The notes under the pieces: model-generated
What the model was told of the DNA's origin: nothing
What the model saw: only the letters and a program-made list of their open reading frames with translations
Databases searched by the model: none
Position numbers and translations under genes: made by a program
In this document: piece after piece, positions 1,348 through 21,454 of the stretch
Numbering within the stretch: the first letter of the stretch is position 1
How the letters are laid out: every line of letters begins with the position of its first letter
Source: Halobaculum gomorrense
Lineage (GTDB): Archaea > Halobacteriota > Halobacteria > Halobacteriales > Haloferacaceae
Length of the DNA: 64,000 bases
NCBI RefSeq assembly: GCF_900129775.1
Contig: NZ_FQWV01000004.1
Coordinates: 1 to 64,000 of the forward strand
Direction: 5' to 3'

Positions 1348-1453
1348 CGGGCGCGACGGGATTTGAACCCGCGACCGTCGGATGACTTCCCTCGCCGGGG
1401 TCCCGACGCGGTTAGAAGTCCGACGCTCTGAATCCGGACTGAGCTACGCGCCC
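1348..1453 (-). tRNA. tRNA-Arg (anticodon UCU) with 29-nt intron
   Basis: Read on the minus strand, the acceptor stem is GGGCGCG/CGCGCCC. The D arm is GCTC...GAGC, the anticodon stem TCGGA/TCCGA, and the T arm GCGGG-TTCAAAT-CCCGT. The loop CTTCTA-A gives anticodon UCU only if plus positions 1384-1412 are removed as an intron after nucleotide 37. The splice region forms a canonical archaeal bulge-helix-bulge: a 4-bp CUUC/GAAG helix flanked by 3-nt bulges UAA and UCA. The mature tRNA would be 77 nt including the discriminator G. Without the intron the anticodon loop would not close. Confidence 0.93.
1384..1412 (-). other. tRNA-Arg intron (BHB type)
   Basis: This 29-nt segment lies between tRNA nucleotides 37 and 38. 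Its 3' end GAAG pairs with CUUC of the anticodon loop, and a 3-nt bulge sits on each side. That is the structure recognised by the archaeal tRNA splicing endonuclease. The assignment rests on the structure; no splice data are available. Confidence 0.9.
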
Positions 1454-5579: not shown

Positions 5580-6968
5580 TCACCCGAACGGCCCCATCCC
5601 GCCCATGCCGCCGCCACCGCCGCCGCCCTGCTGTTGCAGCTTCTTCATCATCCGCTGCATGTCGCCGTCGCCCATGTTGCCGAACTGGTCCATCGTCCGC
5701 TTCATCATGCTGTGCTGTTCGAGCAGCTCCTCGATACGCTCCTCGGGGACGCCCGAGCCGCGGGCGATCCGCTCCAGCCGGTCGCTCTTGATGACCGCGG
5801 GGTTCTCCAGCTCCTCCTCGGTCATCGAGTCCATCGCGATCTCGAAGCTCCGCATGCGCTCTTGGGTCACGTCCATCGCGTCGTCCGGGAGCTGGTCCAT
5901 GATCCCGCCGCCCATGCCGGGGATCATGTCGAGCACCTGATCGAGTGGGCCCATGCGGTCCATCGCCTTCATCTGGTTGCGCATGTCTTTGAGGGTGAAC
6001 TCCCCCTCCATCATGTCCTCGGGGTCCCAGTCGTCTTCCGCTTGGGTCTCCTCCATCGCGCGCTCGACGCGCTCGGAGAGCTGCTTGAGGTCGCCCATTC
6101 CCAGCAGCCGCGAGATGAAGCCGTTCGGCTCGAAGCGCTCGATGTCCTGTACCGTCTCGCCAGCGCCGAGGAACGCGATAGAGGAGCCGGTCTCGTTGAC
6201 GGCCGTCAGCGCTCCGCCGCCCTTCGCGGTCCCGTCGAGCTTCGTGATGACGACGCCGTCGATGCCGATCGACTCCTCGAACTGGCGGGCCTGCTCTTTG
6301 GCGCCCTGCCCGATCGCGGCGTCGAGCACGAGCAGCGAGCGGTCCGGATCAACCGCGTCGTCGATCTGTTCGATCTCGTCGATGAGGTCGTCCTCCAGCG
6401 CGTGGCGGCCGGCCGTGTCGACGATGCGAACGTCGGCGTCGGCGGTCGCCTCCAACCCGTCGCGGGCGATCTGCACCGGGTCGTCGCCGTCGGGGTCGCC
6501 GTAGAACTCCACCTCGGCGTTCTCGGCCATCTGCTTGGCCTGGTCGTAGGCGCCGGGGCGGAAGGTGTCGGTCTGGATGACCGCCGGGCGCAGCCCCTTC
6601 TTCGAGAACCACCACGCCATCTTGGCGGCGGTGGTGGTCTTCCCCGAGCCCTGGAGGCCCGCGAGCACGATCGTCTGCTCCTCCAGCGGGATCTCGGTCG
6701 ACTCCCCGATGAGGCCGACCATCTCCTCGTAGACGATCTTGAGGACGTGATCGCGGGCGGTCGTGCCGCCGGGGGGGTCCTCCTCCAGCGCACGGGTCTT
6801 GATGCTGTCCGACAGCTCCATGACGAGGTCCACGTCCACGTCAGCCGACAGCAGCGATCGCTGGATCTGCTTGACGACTTCCTGCACGTCGTCCTCGTCG
6901 ATACGGGACTTCCCGCGGAGCGAGTCCATCGTGCTCCGGAGGGAACTCCCCAGATCGTCGAGTACCAT
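5580..6968 (-). CDS. srp54: Signal recognition particle GTPase SRP54 (Ffh)
   Basis: A 462-residue GTPase of the SRP that binds 7S RNA and signal sequences and docks with FtsY (also in this window). It has the N domain, then the G domain with [11 protein letters not shown] (G1, about residue 103), [10 protein letters not shown] (G2), VDTAGRH (G3) and TKLDG (G4). It ends in a methionine-rich M domain and a Gly/Met-rich tail. Length and order match archaeal SRP54. A TATA-like CCTTTACC about 30 nt upstream of the ATG on the minus strand suggests a short or absent leader. It is transcribed alone. Confidence 0.97.
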
Positions 6969-7107: not shown

Positions 7108-7335
7108 GAAAGCCCCCGTGGCTGTGCGCTCGGTGCGGCCGCTGCGCTCCTCGGCTCGCTCCCTCCGGTCGTTCGCCCGCGGTGCTTGACGGTCCGCGCC
7201 TTCTCGCACAGCCACGGCCCCTTTCAGTCCCACCCGCCCACCCGCTGCGACCGCCCCGCCCCGCGCCCCCGCCTCTCCAGCCGACTCGCTCGTCACTCGC
7301 TCCGTTCGTTCCTCGCTTGCCCCTCGCGCGAACGG
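7108..7335 (+). repeat. Dispersed intergenic structured repeat, copy A
   Basis: One of two related copies in the window (the other is at 19825-20051 on the minus strand). It begins with GAAAG, CCC, then the stem arm CCGTGGCTGTGCG (7116-7128), a 76-nt loop, the perfectly complementary arm CGCACAGCCACGG (7205-7217), CCC and CTTTC (7221-7225). Conserved CAGTCCCACC and a TCGCTC/TTCGTTC-rich tail follow, to about 7335. Both copies keep the stem while changing two base pairs. The open frames through it (with an ESPRGCALG-like string) look spurious. It may be a structured RNA, a terminator-like element or a non-autonomous mobile repeat. Confidence 0.75.
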
Positions 7336-7421
7336 GCGCGACGAGCGCGCCCTCGCCGCACGCCACACGGTCGTCGGATTCGTACCGAACCCACTTCACG
7401 CCGTCTCGCGAATCACGACGC

Positions 7422-7940
7422 GTGTTCGGGCTCGACGCCGCCACGCTCGCCGCCTACGTCGCCGCCGCGGGTGCGCTGATCCTCGTCCCCGGGTAGGACA
7501 CCCTCGTCGTGCTCACCCGCAGGTTCGCCTCACGCGCGGCGGGCGTCGGCGTCGCGTGCGGGGTCGCCGTCGGCGTCCTCGTCCACGCGACCGCCGCGGC
7601 GCTGGGGCTGGCGGCGATCTACCGCGCGGTTCCGGCGGCGGCGACGCTCGTCACGCTCGCGGGCTTCCGCCGGGGGCTGGTCACCAGCGTCGCGAACCCG
7701 AAGGTCGCGTTGTTCTTTCTCGCCTTCCTCCCGGGGTTCGCCGGCGGGGGACAGCCGGCGACGATGGCCGCCCCCGGCGCGGTGTACGCCCTGTTGACGG
7801 TCGCGTACCTCGCGGCCGTCGGCGCGCTCGCGGGCCGGATCGACGCGGTGGCGACCGGACGGGTCGCCGGGGCGATCCGGCTGGGGTCGGCGGCGGCGTT
7901 GGTCGCGCTGGCCGCGGCGCTGATCGCGCGGGTGGCGTGA
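7422..7940 (+). pseudogene. Decayed LysE/RhtB-family exporter
   Basis: The frame starting at GTG 7422 encodes an N-terminal hydrophobic segment ending ALILVPG, where a TAG at 7494-7496 interrupts it. The family reads LxPGPDTL here, and the frame continues as DTLVVLTR directly after the stop. Downstream AAAALGLAAIYRAVPAAATLVTLAG joins FRRGLVTSVANPKVALFFLAFLPGF without the roughly 40 residues that normally lie between TM3 and this conserved NPKVALFF motif. One nonsense codon plus an internal deletion indicate a pseudogene. Amino-acid export would have been its ancestral role. Confidence 0.85.
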
Positions 7941-18367: not shown

Positions 18368-19669
18368 ATGACCGACACACTCGCCGTCACGGATGGGCGC
18401 GTGCTCACGCCCGAGTTCGACGTGATCGAGGCCGACGTGCTGATCGACGCCGACGCGGGGGAGATCCTCGAGATCGGGCCCGGCCTCGCGGGCGACGCAG
18501 ACGGGACGCTCGACGCGACCGACTCGCTCGTGATGCCGGGGCTCGTGAACGCCCACGGCCACGCGACGATGACGCTCCTGCGCGGCTACGCCGACGACAA
18601 GACCCTCGAAGACTGGCTCCAGGAGGACATCTGGCCCGCGGAGGCGGCGCTGACGCCCGAGGACGTGGGCGTCGGCACCCGGCTGGCGGCTGTCGAACTG
18701 ATCCGCAGCGGGACGACCGCGTTCGCGGACATGTACTTCCACGTCGGCGAGGTCGTCGAGGCGGTCCGCGAGGCGGGCGTCCGCGCCCGCGTCGGCCACG
18801 GCGTCGTCACCGTCGGCAAGGACGCCGAGGCTGCCCGAGACGACTTCGCCGAGTCGCTGGCGGTCGCCGAGGAGTACGACGGCGCCGCCGACGGCCGGGT
18901 CCGGACGGCGGTGATGCCCCACGCGCCCCACACCGTCGGGACCGAGTTCTTCGAGGAGTTCGTCCCGAAGGCCCGAGAGGCCGGCATCCCGCTGCACTTC
19001 CACCTGAACGAGACCGAGACGTACCTCGACGAGATCGACGCCGAGGCGGGCGTTCGACCGACCGAGTACGCCGACGACCTCGGCCTCCTCGCCGAGGACA
19101 CGTGGGTCGCCCACGGCGTCCACCTCGACGCCGCGGAGATCGAGACGCTCGCCGAGCGCGGCACCGCCGTCGCCCACTGCCCGGCCTCGAACATGAAGCT
19201 CGCGTCCGGGATGGCGCCGGTGCAGGAGCTGCTCGACGCGGGCGTGACCGTCGCGCTCGGGACCGACGGCGCCGCCTCGAACAACGACCTCGACCTCTTC
19301 GACGAGATCCGCGACGCCGCGATGATCGGGAAGCTCGCGGCCGACGACGCCGCGGCCGTCGACGCCGAGACCGCCGTCCGGGTCGCGACGGAGGGCGGCG
19401 CCCGCGCGCTCGGGTTCGACTCCGGTCGGATCGAGGCGGGCGCGAACGCCGACCTCGCGGTCGTCGACCTCGACGCCGCCCACCTGACGCCCGAGCACGA
19501 CCTCGTCTCGCACCTCGCGTACGCCGCCCGCGGCAGCGACGTGCGCCACACGGTCTGCGACGGCGAGGTGCTGATGCGCGACGGCGAGGTGCTCGCGTTC
19601 GACGAGGCCGACGTGCGCGAGCGGGCTCAGGAGCACGCCGAGGCGCTCGTCGAACGCGCTGAGGAGTAA
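18368..19669 (+). CDS. mtaD: 5'-methylthioadenosine / S-adenosylhomocysteine deaminase
   Basis: A 433-residue amidohydrolase of the cytosine-deaminase/MtaD class. Metal ligands are visible: GLVNAHGHATMTLLRG (HxH, about residue 62), HFHLNET (about 215), VAHGVHLD and GTDGAASNNDLDL (catalytic Asp). The family deaminates MTA, SAH or 5'-deoxyadenosine. Location 0.5 kb upstream of S-adenosylhomocysteinase makes a role in SAH salvage likely, possibly via S-inosylhomocysteine. TRZ/ATZ chlorohydrolase-like names would describe the same family. Substrate is inferred. Confidence 0.87.
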   Translation: MTDTLAVTDGRVLTPEFDVIEADVLIDADAGEILEIGPGLAGDADGTLDATDSLVMPGLVNAHGHATMTLLRGYADDKTLEDWLQEDIWPAEAALTPEDVGVGTRLAAVELIRSGTTAFADMYFHVGEVVEAVREAGVRARVGHGVVTVGKDAEAARDDFAESLAVAEEYDGAADGRVRTAVMPHAPHTVGTEFFEEFVPKAREAGIPLHFHLNETETYLDEIDAEAGVRPTEYADDLGLLAEDTWVAHGVHLDAAEIETLAERGTAVAHCPASNMKLASGMAPVQELLDAGVTVALGTDGAASNNDLDLFDEIRDAAMIGKLAADDAAAVDAETAVRVATEGGARALGFDSGRIEAGANADLAVVDLDAAHLTPEHDLVSHLAYAARGSDVRHTVCDGEVLMRDGEVLAFDEADVRERAQEHAEALVERAEE

Positions 19670-19824
19670 GTCACAGCGACGTACCTGCGGTGGCGGGTGC
19701 CGGCGGGCCTCCGATCACGCGAGCGGTGCGCGGTCGAGCGTAGTGAGACCGCGACAGCGAGCGGCGAACGGAGTGAGCCGTGAGCGAAGCGAGTGTGACC
19801 TCACGGGGCCGGAGGCCCCGGGTA
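19670..19824. other. Intergenic, clustered short inverted motifs
   Basis: No gene is seen. The stretch is rich in motifs of the form GAGCG-AAG/TAG-GAGTG (around 19735-19800), each locally self-complementary, and a GGGGCCGGAGGCCCC palindrome near 19805-19819. It leads into copy B of the structured repeat. Confidence 0.4.
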
Positions 19825-20051
19825 GTGCCCGCCGGACGTGCGCGAGAGGTGAGCGACCGAACGAAGTGAGGGAGCGAATCGGTTGGGGAGAGCGTGGCGA
19901 CGGTGCGGTGCTGTGCAGTTGGGTGGGACTGAAAGGGGCCGCGGGTGTGCGGGAAGGCGGACGACGCAAGCACCGCAGCGTGAGCGGAACGACGTGGAGC
20001 GAGCGCGAGGAGCGCAGCGAGTCCCCCGAGCGCACACCCGCGGGGGCTTTC
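19825..20051 (-). repeat. Dispersed intergenic structured repeat, copy B
   Basis: This is the same element as at 7108-7335, in opposite orientation. On the minus strand it reads GAAAG, CCC, CCGCGGGTGTGCG (20031-20043), a 79-nt loop, CGCACACCCGCGG (19939-19951), CCC, CTTTC (19931-19935), CAGTCCCACC, then the TCGCTC-rich tail to about 19825. Compared with copy A, two stem base pairs differ on both arms, so pairing is preserved. The loop conserves GCTGCGCTCCTCG and GCGGTGCTTG. It lies about 110 bp upstream of the ahcY start on the opposite strand. Confidence 0.75.
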
Positions 20052-20164: not shown

Positions 20165-21454
20165 ATGAGTACACAGTCGTACGCACCCGTCACGGACCAC
20201 CTCGACGACCCCGAATCGGCCCGCGAGGAGGGCCGTCGCAAGATGGACTGGGCGCTCCAGCACATGCCCATCCTGAACCACCTCCGCGAGGAGTTCTCCG
20301 CCGAGCAACCGTTCGCAGGCCAGACCATCGGGATGGCGATGCACGTGGAGGCGAAGACCGCGAACCTCGTCGAACTGCTCGCCGAGGGCGGCGCGGAGGT
20401 TGCTATCACGGGCTGCAACCCCCTCTCGACGCACGACGACGTGAGTGCGGCACTGGACGCTCACGAGCGCATCACCTCCTACGCCGTCCGCGGCGTCGGG
20501 GACGAGGACTACTACGCCGCCATCGAGTCGGTCATCGCCCACGAGCCGACGATCACGGTGGACGACGGGATGGACATGGTCGCGGCCATCCACGAGGACT
20601 ACCCCGAACTCATCGACTCCATCGTCGGCGGCGCCGAGGAGACCACCACCGGCGTCCACCGCCTGCGCGCGATGGACGCCGACGGCGAACTCCACTACCC
20701 CGTCTTCGCGGTGAACGATACGCCGATGAAGCGGCTGTTCGACAACGTCCACGGCACCGGCGAGTCCTCGCTCGCGACGATCGCCATGACGACGAACCTC
20801 TCGTTTGCCGGCAAGGACGTCGTCGTCGCCGGCTTCGGCTACTGCGGCAAGGGCGTCGCGAAGAAGGCCGCCGGCCAGAACGCGAACGTCATCGTCTGCG
20901 AGGTCGACTCCCGGAAGGCCCTCGAAGCCCACATGGAGGGATACGACGTGCTGCCAATGGAAGAAGCCGCCAAGGAGGGCGACGTGTTCATCACGACGAC
21001 GGGCAACCGCGACGTGATCACTGCCGAGCACTTCGAGCGGATGAGCGACGGCGTCCTCCTCGCGAACGCGGGCCACTTCGACGTGGAGATCAACCTCGAC
21101 GAACTCGACGACCTCGCGGTCGACCGCTACGAGGCTCGCGACGGCGTCGAGGCCTACGAGATGGCCGACGGCCGCCGGCTGAACGTCCTCGCGGAGGGAC
21201 GGCTCGTCAACCTCGCGGCGCCCATCGCGCTCGGCCACCCGGTCGAGGTGATGGACCAGAGCTTCGGCGTGCAGGCCGTCTGCGTGCGTGAGCTCGTCGA
21301 GAACGGCGAGGCGTACAACGCCGGCGTCCACGAGGTGCCCGACGAGCTCGACCGCGAGGTCGCTGAGGTGAAGCTCGCGGCCGAGGGCGTCGAGTTCGAC
21401 GACCTCAGCGACGAGCAGCGCGAGTACATGGGCTCGTGGCAACACGGGACCTGA
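20165..21454 (+). CDS. ahcY: Adenosylhomocysteinase (SAH/SIH hydrolase)
   Basis: A 429-residue NAD+-dependent enzyme splitting S-adenosylhomocysteine to adenosine and homocysteine. It shows ITGCNPLSTHDDV, VDDGMDMVAAIHEDYPEL, the AVNDTPMKRLFDNVHGTGES segment with the catalytic lysine, and the Rossmann GFGYCGKGVAKKA (about residues 223-235). Features such as VDDGMDM and TPMKRLFDN are of the archaeal type rather than the plant/bacterial DDGGDLT type; this branch includes S-inosylhomocysteine hydrolases. A GATTATAC element at about 20131-20138 gives a near-leaderless start at ATG 20165. Confidence 0.95.
   Translation: MSTQSYAPVTDHLDDPESAREEGRRKMDWALQHMPILNHLREEFSAEQPFAGQTIGMAMHVEAKTANLVELLAEGGAEVAITGCNPLSTHDDVSAALDAHERITSYAVRGVGDEDYYAAIESVIAHEPTITVDDGMDMVAAIHEDYPELIDSIVGGAEETTTGVHRLRAMDADGELHYPVFAVNDTPMKRLFDNVHGTGESSLATIAMTTNLSFAGKDVVVAGFGYCGKGVAKKAAGQNANVIVCEVDSRKALEAHMEGYDVLPMEEAAKEGDVFITTTGNRDVITAEHFERMSDGVLLANAGHFDVEINLDELDDLAVDRYEARDGVEAYEMADGRRLNVLAEGRLVNLAAPIALGHPVEVMDQSFGVQAVCVRELVENGEAYNAGVHEVPDELDREVAEVKLAAEGVEFDDLSDEQREYMGSWQHGT

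Follow-up and report, generated by a model that had tools for sequence, protein, structure and literature searches.

A dispersed palindromic DNA repeat of Halobacteria with a near-invariant frame and a helix of variable sequence

The window analysed here, a stretch of 64,000 nucleotides from a 3.2-Mb haloarchaeal genome (G000), contains two copies of a repeat whose arms differ in their letters and are still paired. Does such a repeat represent a structured RNA or a cruciform or non-autonomous DNA element, the two possibilities offered by the original prediction? Both copies, A on the plus strand from 7108 and B on the minus strand from 20051, were confirmed by sequence, together with the 13-bp stem and a loop of 76-79 nt in which the words GCTGCGCTCCTCG and GCGGTGCTTG are exact in A and B (Table 1). 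The two base pairs reported as changed on both sides between A and B do differ, at arm positions 4 and 7. Two details were corrected: the tail is CCCCTTTCAGTCCCACC, one C having previously been counted twice, and 7335 is not a boundary: the sharply conserved core of A stops at 7234, and in both copies the core is followed by a second, variable repeat module, which reaches to about 7366 in A and to about 19689 in B.

Structure and pairing of the repeat

Table 1. Parts of the two repeat copies, with their positions in the window.
Feature	Position	Strand	Remark
Copy A, left frame GAAAGCCC	7108-7115	+	GAAAG is paired with CTTTC, and CCC forms the left side of the internal loop
Copy A, left arm of the 13-bp helix, CCGTGGCTGTGCG	7116-7128	+	
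Copy A, loop, 76 nt, type I	7129-7204	+	contains GCTGCGCTCCTCG and GCGGTGCTTG
Copy A, right arm of the 13-bp helix, CGCACAGCCACGG	7205-7217	+	
Copy A, right frame CCCCTTTCAGTCCCACC	7218-7234	+	CCC, then CTTTCAGTCCCACC at 7221-7234
Copy A, downstream module CTCTCCAGCCGAC .. CCCTCGCGCG .. hairpin ending CGCACGCCAC	7235-7366	+	end approximate
Copy B, left frame GAAAGCCC	20044-20051	-	
Copy B, left arm of the 13-bp helix, CCGCGGGTGTGCG	20031-20043	-	
Copy B, loop, 79 nt, type I	19952-20030	-	
Copy B, right arm of the 13-bp helix, CGCACACCCGCGG	19939-19951	-	
Copy B, right frame CCCCTTTCAGTCCCACC	19922-19938	-	CTTTCAGTCCCACC at 19935-19922
Copy B, downstream module, made longer by a nested insert; ends in GCCCGCCGGCACCCGCCACC	19689-19921	-	end approximate

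In the window, CTTTCAGTCCCACC and GAAAGCCCCCG are found at A and B only. Copy A, which is located upstream of the SRP54 gene (5580-6968, on the opposite strand), folds with -64 kcal/mol as RNA (z -4.8) and with -33.1 as DNA (z -3.4), while copy B lies between an amidohydrolase gene (18368-19669) and the S-adenosylhomocysteine hydrolase gene (20165-21454). Concerning the neighbouring sequence, a LysE-type translocator gene adjoining copy A (7420-7940) looks like a pseudogene: its start region is broken by a TAG, the Pfam LysE match is confined to the second half of the profile, and the region is open in relatives of the genus, unlike in the window. Elsewhere (1348-1453, minus strand) there is a tRNA match over 106 bases, a length suggesting an intron-containing tRNA gene.

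The frame GAAAGCCC-(13-bp helix)-loop-(13-bp helix)-CCCCTTTCAGTCCCACC was recovered about 8-10 times in the window's genome by BLAST and pattern searches, and some of these copies are cut down to the bare frame, as in CGAAAGCCCCCGCGGCCCCTTTCAGTCCC. In a set of 136 copies, selected partly by pairing, the frame GAAAGCCCC .. GGCCCCTTTCAGTCCCACC is almost invariant, the CCC/CCC internal loop is kept in nearly all copies, and information drops to near background outside the frame edges. The hairpin has a 5-bp foot, then the CCC/CCC internal loop, and beyond this a helix of about 13 bp, which stays paired although its letters differ between copies.

To evaluate pairing we used 154 copies defined by the frame alone, pairing not being used in their definition, and because a MAFFT alignment opens gaps in the variable arms, pairs were counted at fixed register. 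Over the 13 positions, 87.7% of arm cells were paired, against 57.9% when the 3' letters were shuffled (the maximum over 500 shuffles being 60.2%) and 28-40% when the arms were slid by 1-3 positions; the covariation score was 0.668 versus 0.165. These copies have 113 distinct left arms. Pairing stays high up to position 13 and collapses at position 14, the helix ending exactly at 13 bp, in fixed register, in 77 of the 154. This limit holds for loop type I (GCTGCGCTCC..GCGGTGCTTG), for type II (GTCGCT..GATAT..) and for other loops, the loop interiors being of unrelated types in different lineages, with a fast turnover. Hairpin-less copies of 29-31 bp also occur, and they retain the exact frame. 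An inverted partner, tail to tail, is present downstream in about one fifth of the copies (32/154) and almost never upstream (2 copies); in 25 close pairs the spacers measure 20-29 nt, nearly all of them 25-29 nt.

Other small modules are associated with the hairpin. Haloarchaea of the family to which the window's genus belongs often have a second dispersed module (CTCCCCAGCC .. CCTCGCGCGC .. terminal hairpin) 3' of the tail (examples L336-L365), and this module was also seen without the hairpin (L003). Some loops (L009, L005 and L006, and also L200/L253, which is locus A of G394) hold nested inserts consisting of two small hairpins in a row, such as those around CACGAGAGC..GCTCTCGTG and CAGAACGC..GCGTTCTG, and their stems vary yet stay paired. 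In one copy (L174 1258) the loop interior apparently runs in the opposite direction to the frame, as if recombination had taken place between the arms of the hairpin.

Distribution and history at orthologous sites

The tail 14-mer CTTTCAGTCCCACC was found in 187 of 392 sampled Halobacteriales genomes, corresponding to 64 of the 95 genera sampled, with up to 71 occurrences per genome, while a reversed-pattern control gave values near zero across the same sample. Element-rich genomes carry 66 (G104), 58 (G263), 47 (G187), 45 (G378) and 44 (G301) exact tails. The spread is patchy: in one genus (g2) nearly all sampled members have 0 exact tails, and other genera of the same family have 58-71. The 19-mer GGCCCCTTTCAGTCCCACC has at least 80 matches in GTDB genome contigs, all haloarchaeal among the matches listed, and a 16-mer of the tail has no match in 93 other genomes of the phylum. 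Homologues are abundant across haloarchaeal genomes and their stem is kept, so that the original prediction withstands the refutation test proposed with it. The family looks class-wide, being old and widespread in Halobacteria and, so far as tested, confined there. A virus-borne element was rejected, since the 19-mer has 0 matches in IMG/VR and phage records have none; plasmid records with DNA similar to the window are from Halobaculum only, which is probably the genus of the host. The literature searched, which covered MITEs, PATEs and small mobile repeats of haloarchaea as well as extragenic palindromes, describes related kinds of element, but we found no name or description of this family in it, and none of its relevant papers has a 12-letter piece of the frame. 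This absence is not proof of novelty, and the family is apparently unnamed.

The history of the copies was followed at orthologous sites within the genus, where the gene loci of both A and B are present in 11 out of 11 genomes. G000, G266, G394 and G302 have an intact element at locus A; in G395 it is collapsed, in G260 decayed, and in others absent or unrecognisable. The element of locus B was found in G000, G266 and G394 and as a remnant in G302, and is absent from the rest of the genus. G266 and G394, which are about 95% identical around the loci, have 16 element sites in common, and each of the seven own-genome copies examined has an ortholog in G266, G394 or both. At some common sites the arms are identical or carry 1-2 changes, some of them one-sided (L254, L243); at others they are wholly different, along with 60-80 bp on the upstream side and DNA on the downstream side. 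One copy (L252) is absent in G266 through a deletion, by which the CCC run of the left frame has become fused to that of the tail. No clean insertion with its empty site was found in the window's genus, and the one clean polymorphism is this kind of event, a deletion.

From this comparison it is evident that the copies in the genus are old and orthologous, and that they are lost by deletion or replaced with flanking DNA as a unit. It had been proposed that the pairing is selected or copied as a unit. Unit replacement is what we observed; compensation pair by pair at a single site was seen only weakly, at locus A, and the changes between A and B lie between paralogous loci. Since orthologous arms are unchanged, changed on one side or replaced wholesale, copying of the whole unit matters at least as much as compensation base by base.

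IS6-type ends and comparison with known elements

In the MAG QS_9_67_17, cores up to 94.6% identical are located in unrelated surroundings, and the copied unit is bounded by terminal inverted repeats GGTAGTGTTCAGATAAG, one lying some 52 bp upstream of GAAAG and the other some 47 bp downstream of the tail. In some lineages, then, the hairpin is found inside a MITE of about 215 bp with IS6-type terminal repeats and target duplications of exactly 8 bp; in Halonotius roseus a unit of 341 bp contains two hairpins. When 31 units were examined for target duplications, matching peaked at 8 bp only, with 4.26 of 8 positions (53% of bases) against 2.37 (about 30%) in shuffled data, where the maximum was 3.10, and the duplication is perfect in two units (L116 and L166). 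The GGTAGTGTTCAGATAAG repeats also bound PF13610 (IS6-type) units of about 690-720 bp in haloarchaea (L288, L299, L303), and in the window's own genome a PF13610 gene on contig C10 (L286) has nearby terminal repeats, GGCGGTGTTCAGATAAG / CTTATCTGAACACTACC, which resemble in kind the MITE ends of other species. None of the PF13610 units examined includes the conserved hairpin frame. Haloarchaeal IS6-type ISs of 696-697 bp with 8-bp duplications are on record, as is an IS6-type MITE, MITEHarch3, and the membership of archaeal elements in the IS6 family has been questioned (PMC6807381).

Both IS6-type ends were present in 24 of 128 genome_contigs copies, in none of 29 copies in the order sample and, at the expected place, in none of 65 copies in G000, G266 and G394, A and B included. 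The IS-like target duplications considered earlier were seen in lineages with the MITE form; A and B have no terminal repeats. We found no IS6 transposase in the two MITE-bearing MAGs, whose assemblies are possibly incomplete. There is no PF13610 match in G104, G263, G187, G378 and G301, all of them rich in elements, so that IS6 cannot be the sole agent. Dispersed copies in G104 are 80-95% alike, up to 95% over 170 bp; since this genome, with its 66 exact tails, has neither PF13610 nor PF01797, another agent exists or existed. No ORF-bearing full-length relative was found between two frames, all partner arms being located within 186 nt. Moreover, conservation of the frame exceeds that of the terminal repeats. 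Simple decay of a MITE would not predict this difference, which points to some further function.

We consider it probable that A and B belong to a mobile, palindromic DNA repeat that is non-autonomous and for which IS6 is one vehicle. Given the IS6-type ends and the 8-bp duplications, the MITE form would be moved in trans by a transposase of the ISH14/ISH29 kind. Dispersal would depend on an IS6-type transposase in trans where terminal repeats exist and on another agent elsewhere.

The family resembles several known systems in part. In its QS_9, QH_7 and Halonotius copies it has in common with haloarchaeal IS6-family MITEs (MITEHarch3; parents such as ISH14/ISH29, PMC6807381) the GGTAGTGTTCAGATAAG ends of the PF13610 units of about 700 bp, the 8-bp target duplications and a length too short for a transposase gene. 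Unlike such MITEs, most copies, including A and B, are without terminal repeats, and the likeness to MITEHarch3 is by description only. SMR-A/B of Haloquadratum walsbyi (PMC3119063) are similar in their size of about 110 bp, inverted ends, lack of a transposase and many copies, and for the bare core of the present family, too, no target duplication was found. The ends of SMR-A/B have no relation to those of any transposon, and the targets of SMR-A are PATE palindromes (PMC3119063); the present core, which is intergenic and has an invariant internal frame and a covarying helix, is set apart by the description of SMRs. PATEs and IS200-IS605-type palindromes (PMC3119063) are likewise palindromes beside short conserved oligonucleotides, in which core deletions via repeats leave a short remnant. 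However, unlike the situation for PATEs, element number is not tracked by the presence of the Y1 transposase (PF01797); none of the Y1 genes examined has the frame at its borders, and among the Y1 loci examined the motif occurs in one only, more than 1 kb away, in a genome with 71 copies.

Bacterial REP, REPIN and BIME sequences are intergenic hairpins with a stem mismatch, a conserved flanking oligonucleotide and inverted pairs, present many times per genome. The present family also consists of intergenic mismatched hairpins with inverted tail-to-tail pairs, but its stem letters are free to vary and no RAYT-like gene is required. A RAYT/IS200-type agent was rejected: G104 (66 copies), G041 (29) and G008 (32) have no PF01797 match, the element-free G060 and G098 have 10 and 6 matches, and there is no correlation. 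Other candidates were discarded as well, namely a CRISPR repeat, suggested by the resemblance of GTGGGACTGAAAG (no arrays with spacers in the loci read), an attC-like folded site (no cassettes beside copies in the loci read) and the intergenic repeats of HF1-type haloviruses, which are AT-rich and carry promoters, and hence are unlike this family.

Possible causes of the conserved frame and pairing

For the conservation of the frame, the explanation that we prefer is a protein that recognises the hairpin. Persistence of frame and hairpin would follow if a protein recognised the folded foot-bubble-helix, single-stranded or extruded; this putative recognition step would fall during mobilisation or replication, and the helix would serve as a spacer of fixed length whose letters are free. 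A more far-reaching version, tentative and in our opinion rather unlikely, is that the foot, the CCC/CCC loop and the 13-bp helix form the substrate of a haloarchaeal protein acting on folded single-stranded DNA, that the paired helix is a measured spacer, and that IS6 MITEs merely captured the structure. The roles that may be named for such a protein, in mobilisation, replication or chromosome upkeep, are equally tentative. A folded substrate of this kind would be comparable in principle to attC or REP hairpins, to which it is unrelated in sequence and machinery.

Alternatively, the frame could be a chromosomal binding site or architectural element, with a putative haloarchaeal DNA-binding protein recognising GAAAGCCC..CCCCTTTCAGTCCCACC as cruciform or duplex. 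Enterobacterial REP/BIME sequences, which bind host proteins, are the model for this explanation, according to which intergenic copies would be kept by selection. It agrees with a frame that is conserved beyond the terminal repeats, that persists in copies without them and that remains exact in hairpin-less copies of 29-31 bp, and also with the 16 copies kept at orthologous sites in G266 and G394 and the orthologs of all seven own-genome copies. However, copies are lost or missing at the same site in close relatives and whole genera are nearly without them (g2 mostly 0, same-family genera 58-71). An essential binding site is disfavoured because the distribution is so patchy, and we judge both the binding site and its maintenance by selection to be unlikely.

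The mobile-DNA reading that we favour for A and B has also to be compared with a structured small RNA gene or a cis-acting RNA element, and here the genomic context is informative. Using a purpose-written, codon-model gene caller, which is approximate, on 119 loci, we found 1 of 136 tails inside an ORF, 120 intergenic and 15 at locus edges. Among copies in tandem gene contexts, 32 share the strand of the genes and 37 have the opposite one, with no strand preference; 37 copies lie between divergent genes and 14 between convergent genes. A transcription terminator was rejected, there being no enrichment between convergent genes (14/120). No conserved TATA-like signal was found upstream, and an Rfam search gave no match at the gathering threshold or at E 1. 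The strand balance and the lack of an upstream TATA-like signal speak against a cis-acting RNA, a terminator and a promoter-driven small RNA gene. The strong covariation, the fixed 13-bp helix between two internal loops and the stable fold of copy A as RNA are what an RNA would be expected to have, but the same covariation is given by DNA hairpins, loop interiors are of unrelated types between lineages, and inverted pairs and collapsed, hairpin-less forms occur. An RNA is for these reasons very unlikely. Of the two possibilities originally offered, the element is supported by the MITE ends, the 8-bp duplications in some lineages, the recent dispersal into unrelated surroundings and the absence of strand bias, while for the structured RNA no positive support was found beyond the pairing, there being no promoter, strand bias or Rfam match and the loops turning over rapidly.

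Just as improbable is that the pairing is functionless and the repeats are debris, the arms being kept complementary by template-switch correction of quasi-palindromes in replication: orthologous palindromes do change in large steps or by wholesale replacement with neighbouring DNA, one hairpin was deleted by microhomology and other intergenic hairpins of unrelated sequence are found inside loops, but the helix ends at exactly 13 bp in fixed register in half of the copies, the CCC/CCC mismatch that correction would remove is kept in nearly all of them, and one-sided intermediates were seen (L254, L243).

The mobile repeat proposed here connects covarying hairpins with an archaeal MITE of IS6 type. 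A near-invariant frame, combined with a fixed helix length and free arms, offers a testable case of selection on the shape of a DNA hairpin. It should be noted, finally, that covariation alone, often taken as proof of RNA structure, can arise from mobile DNA.
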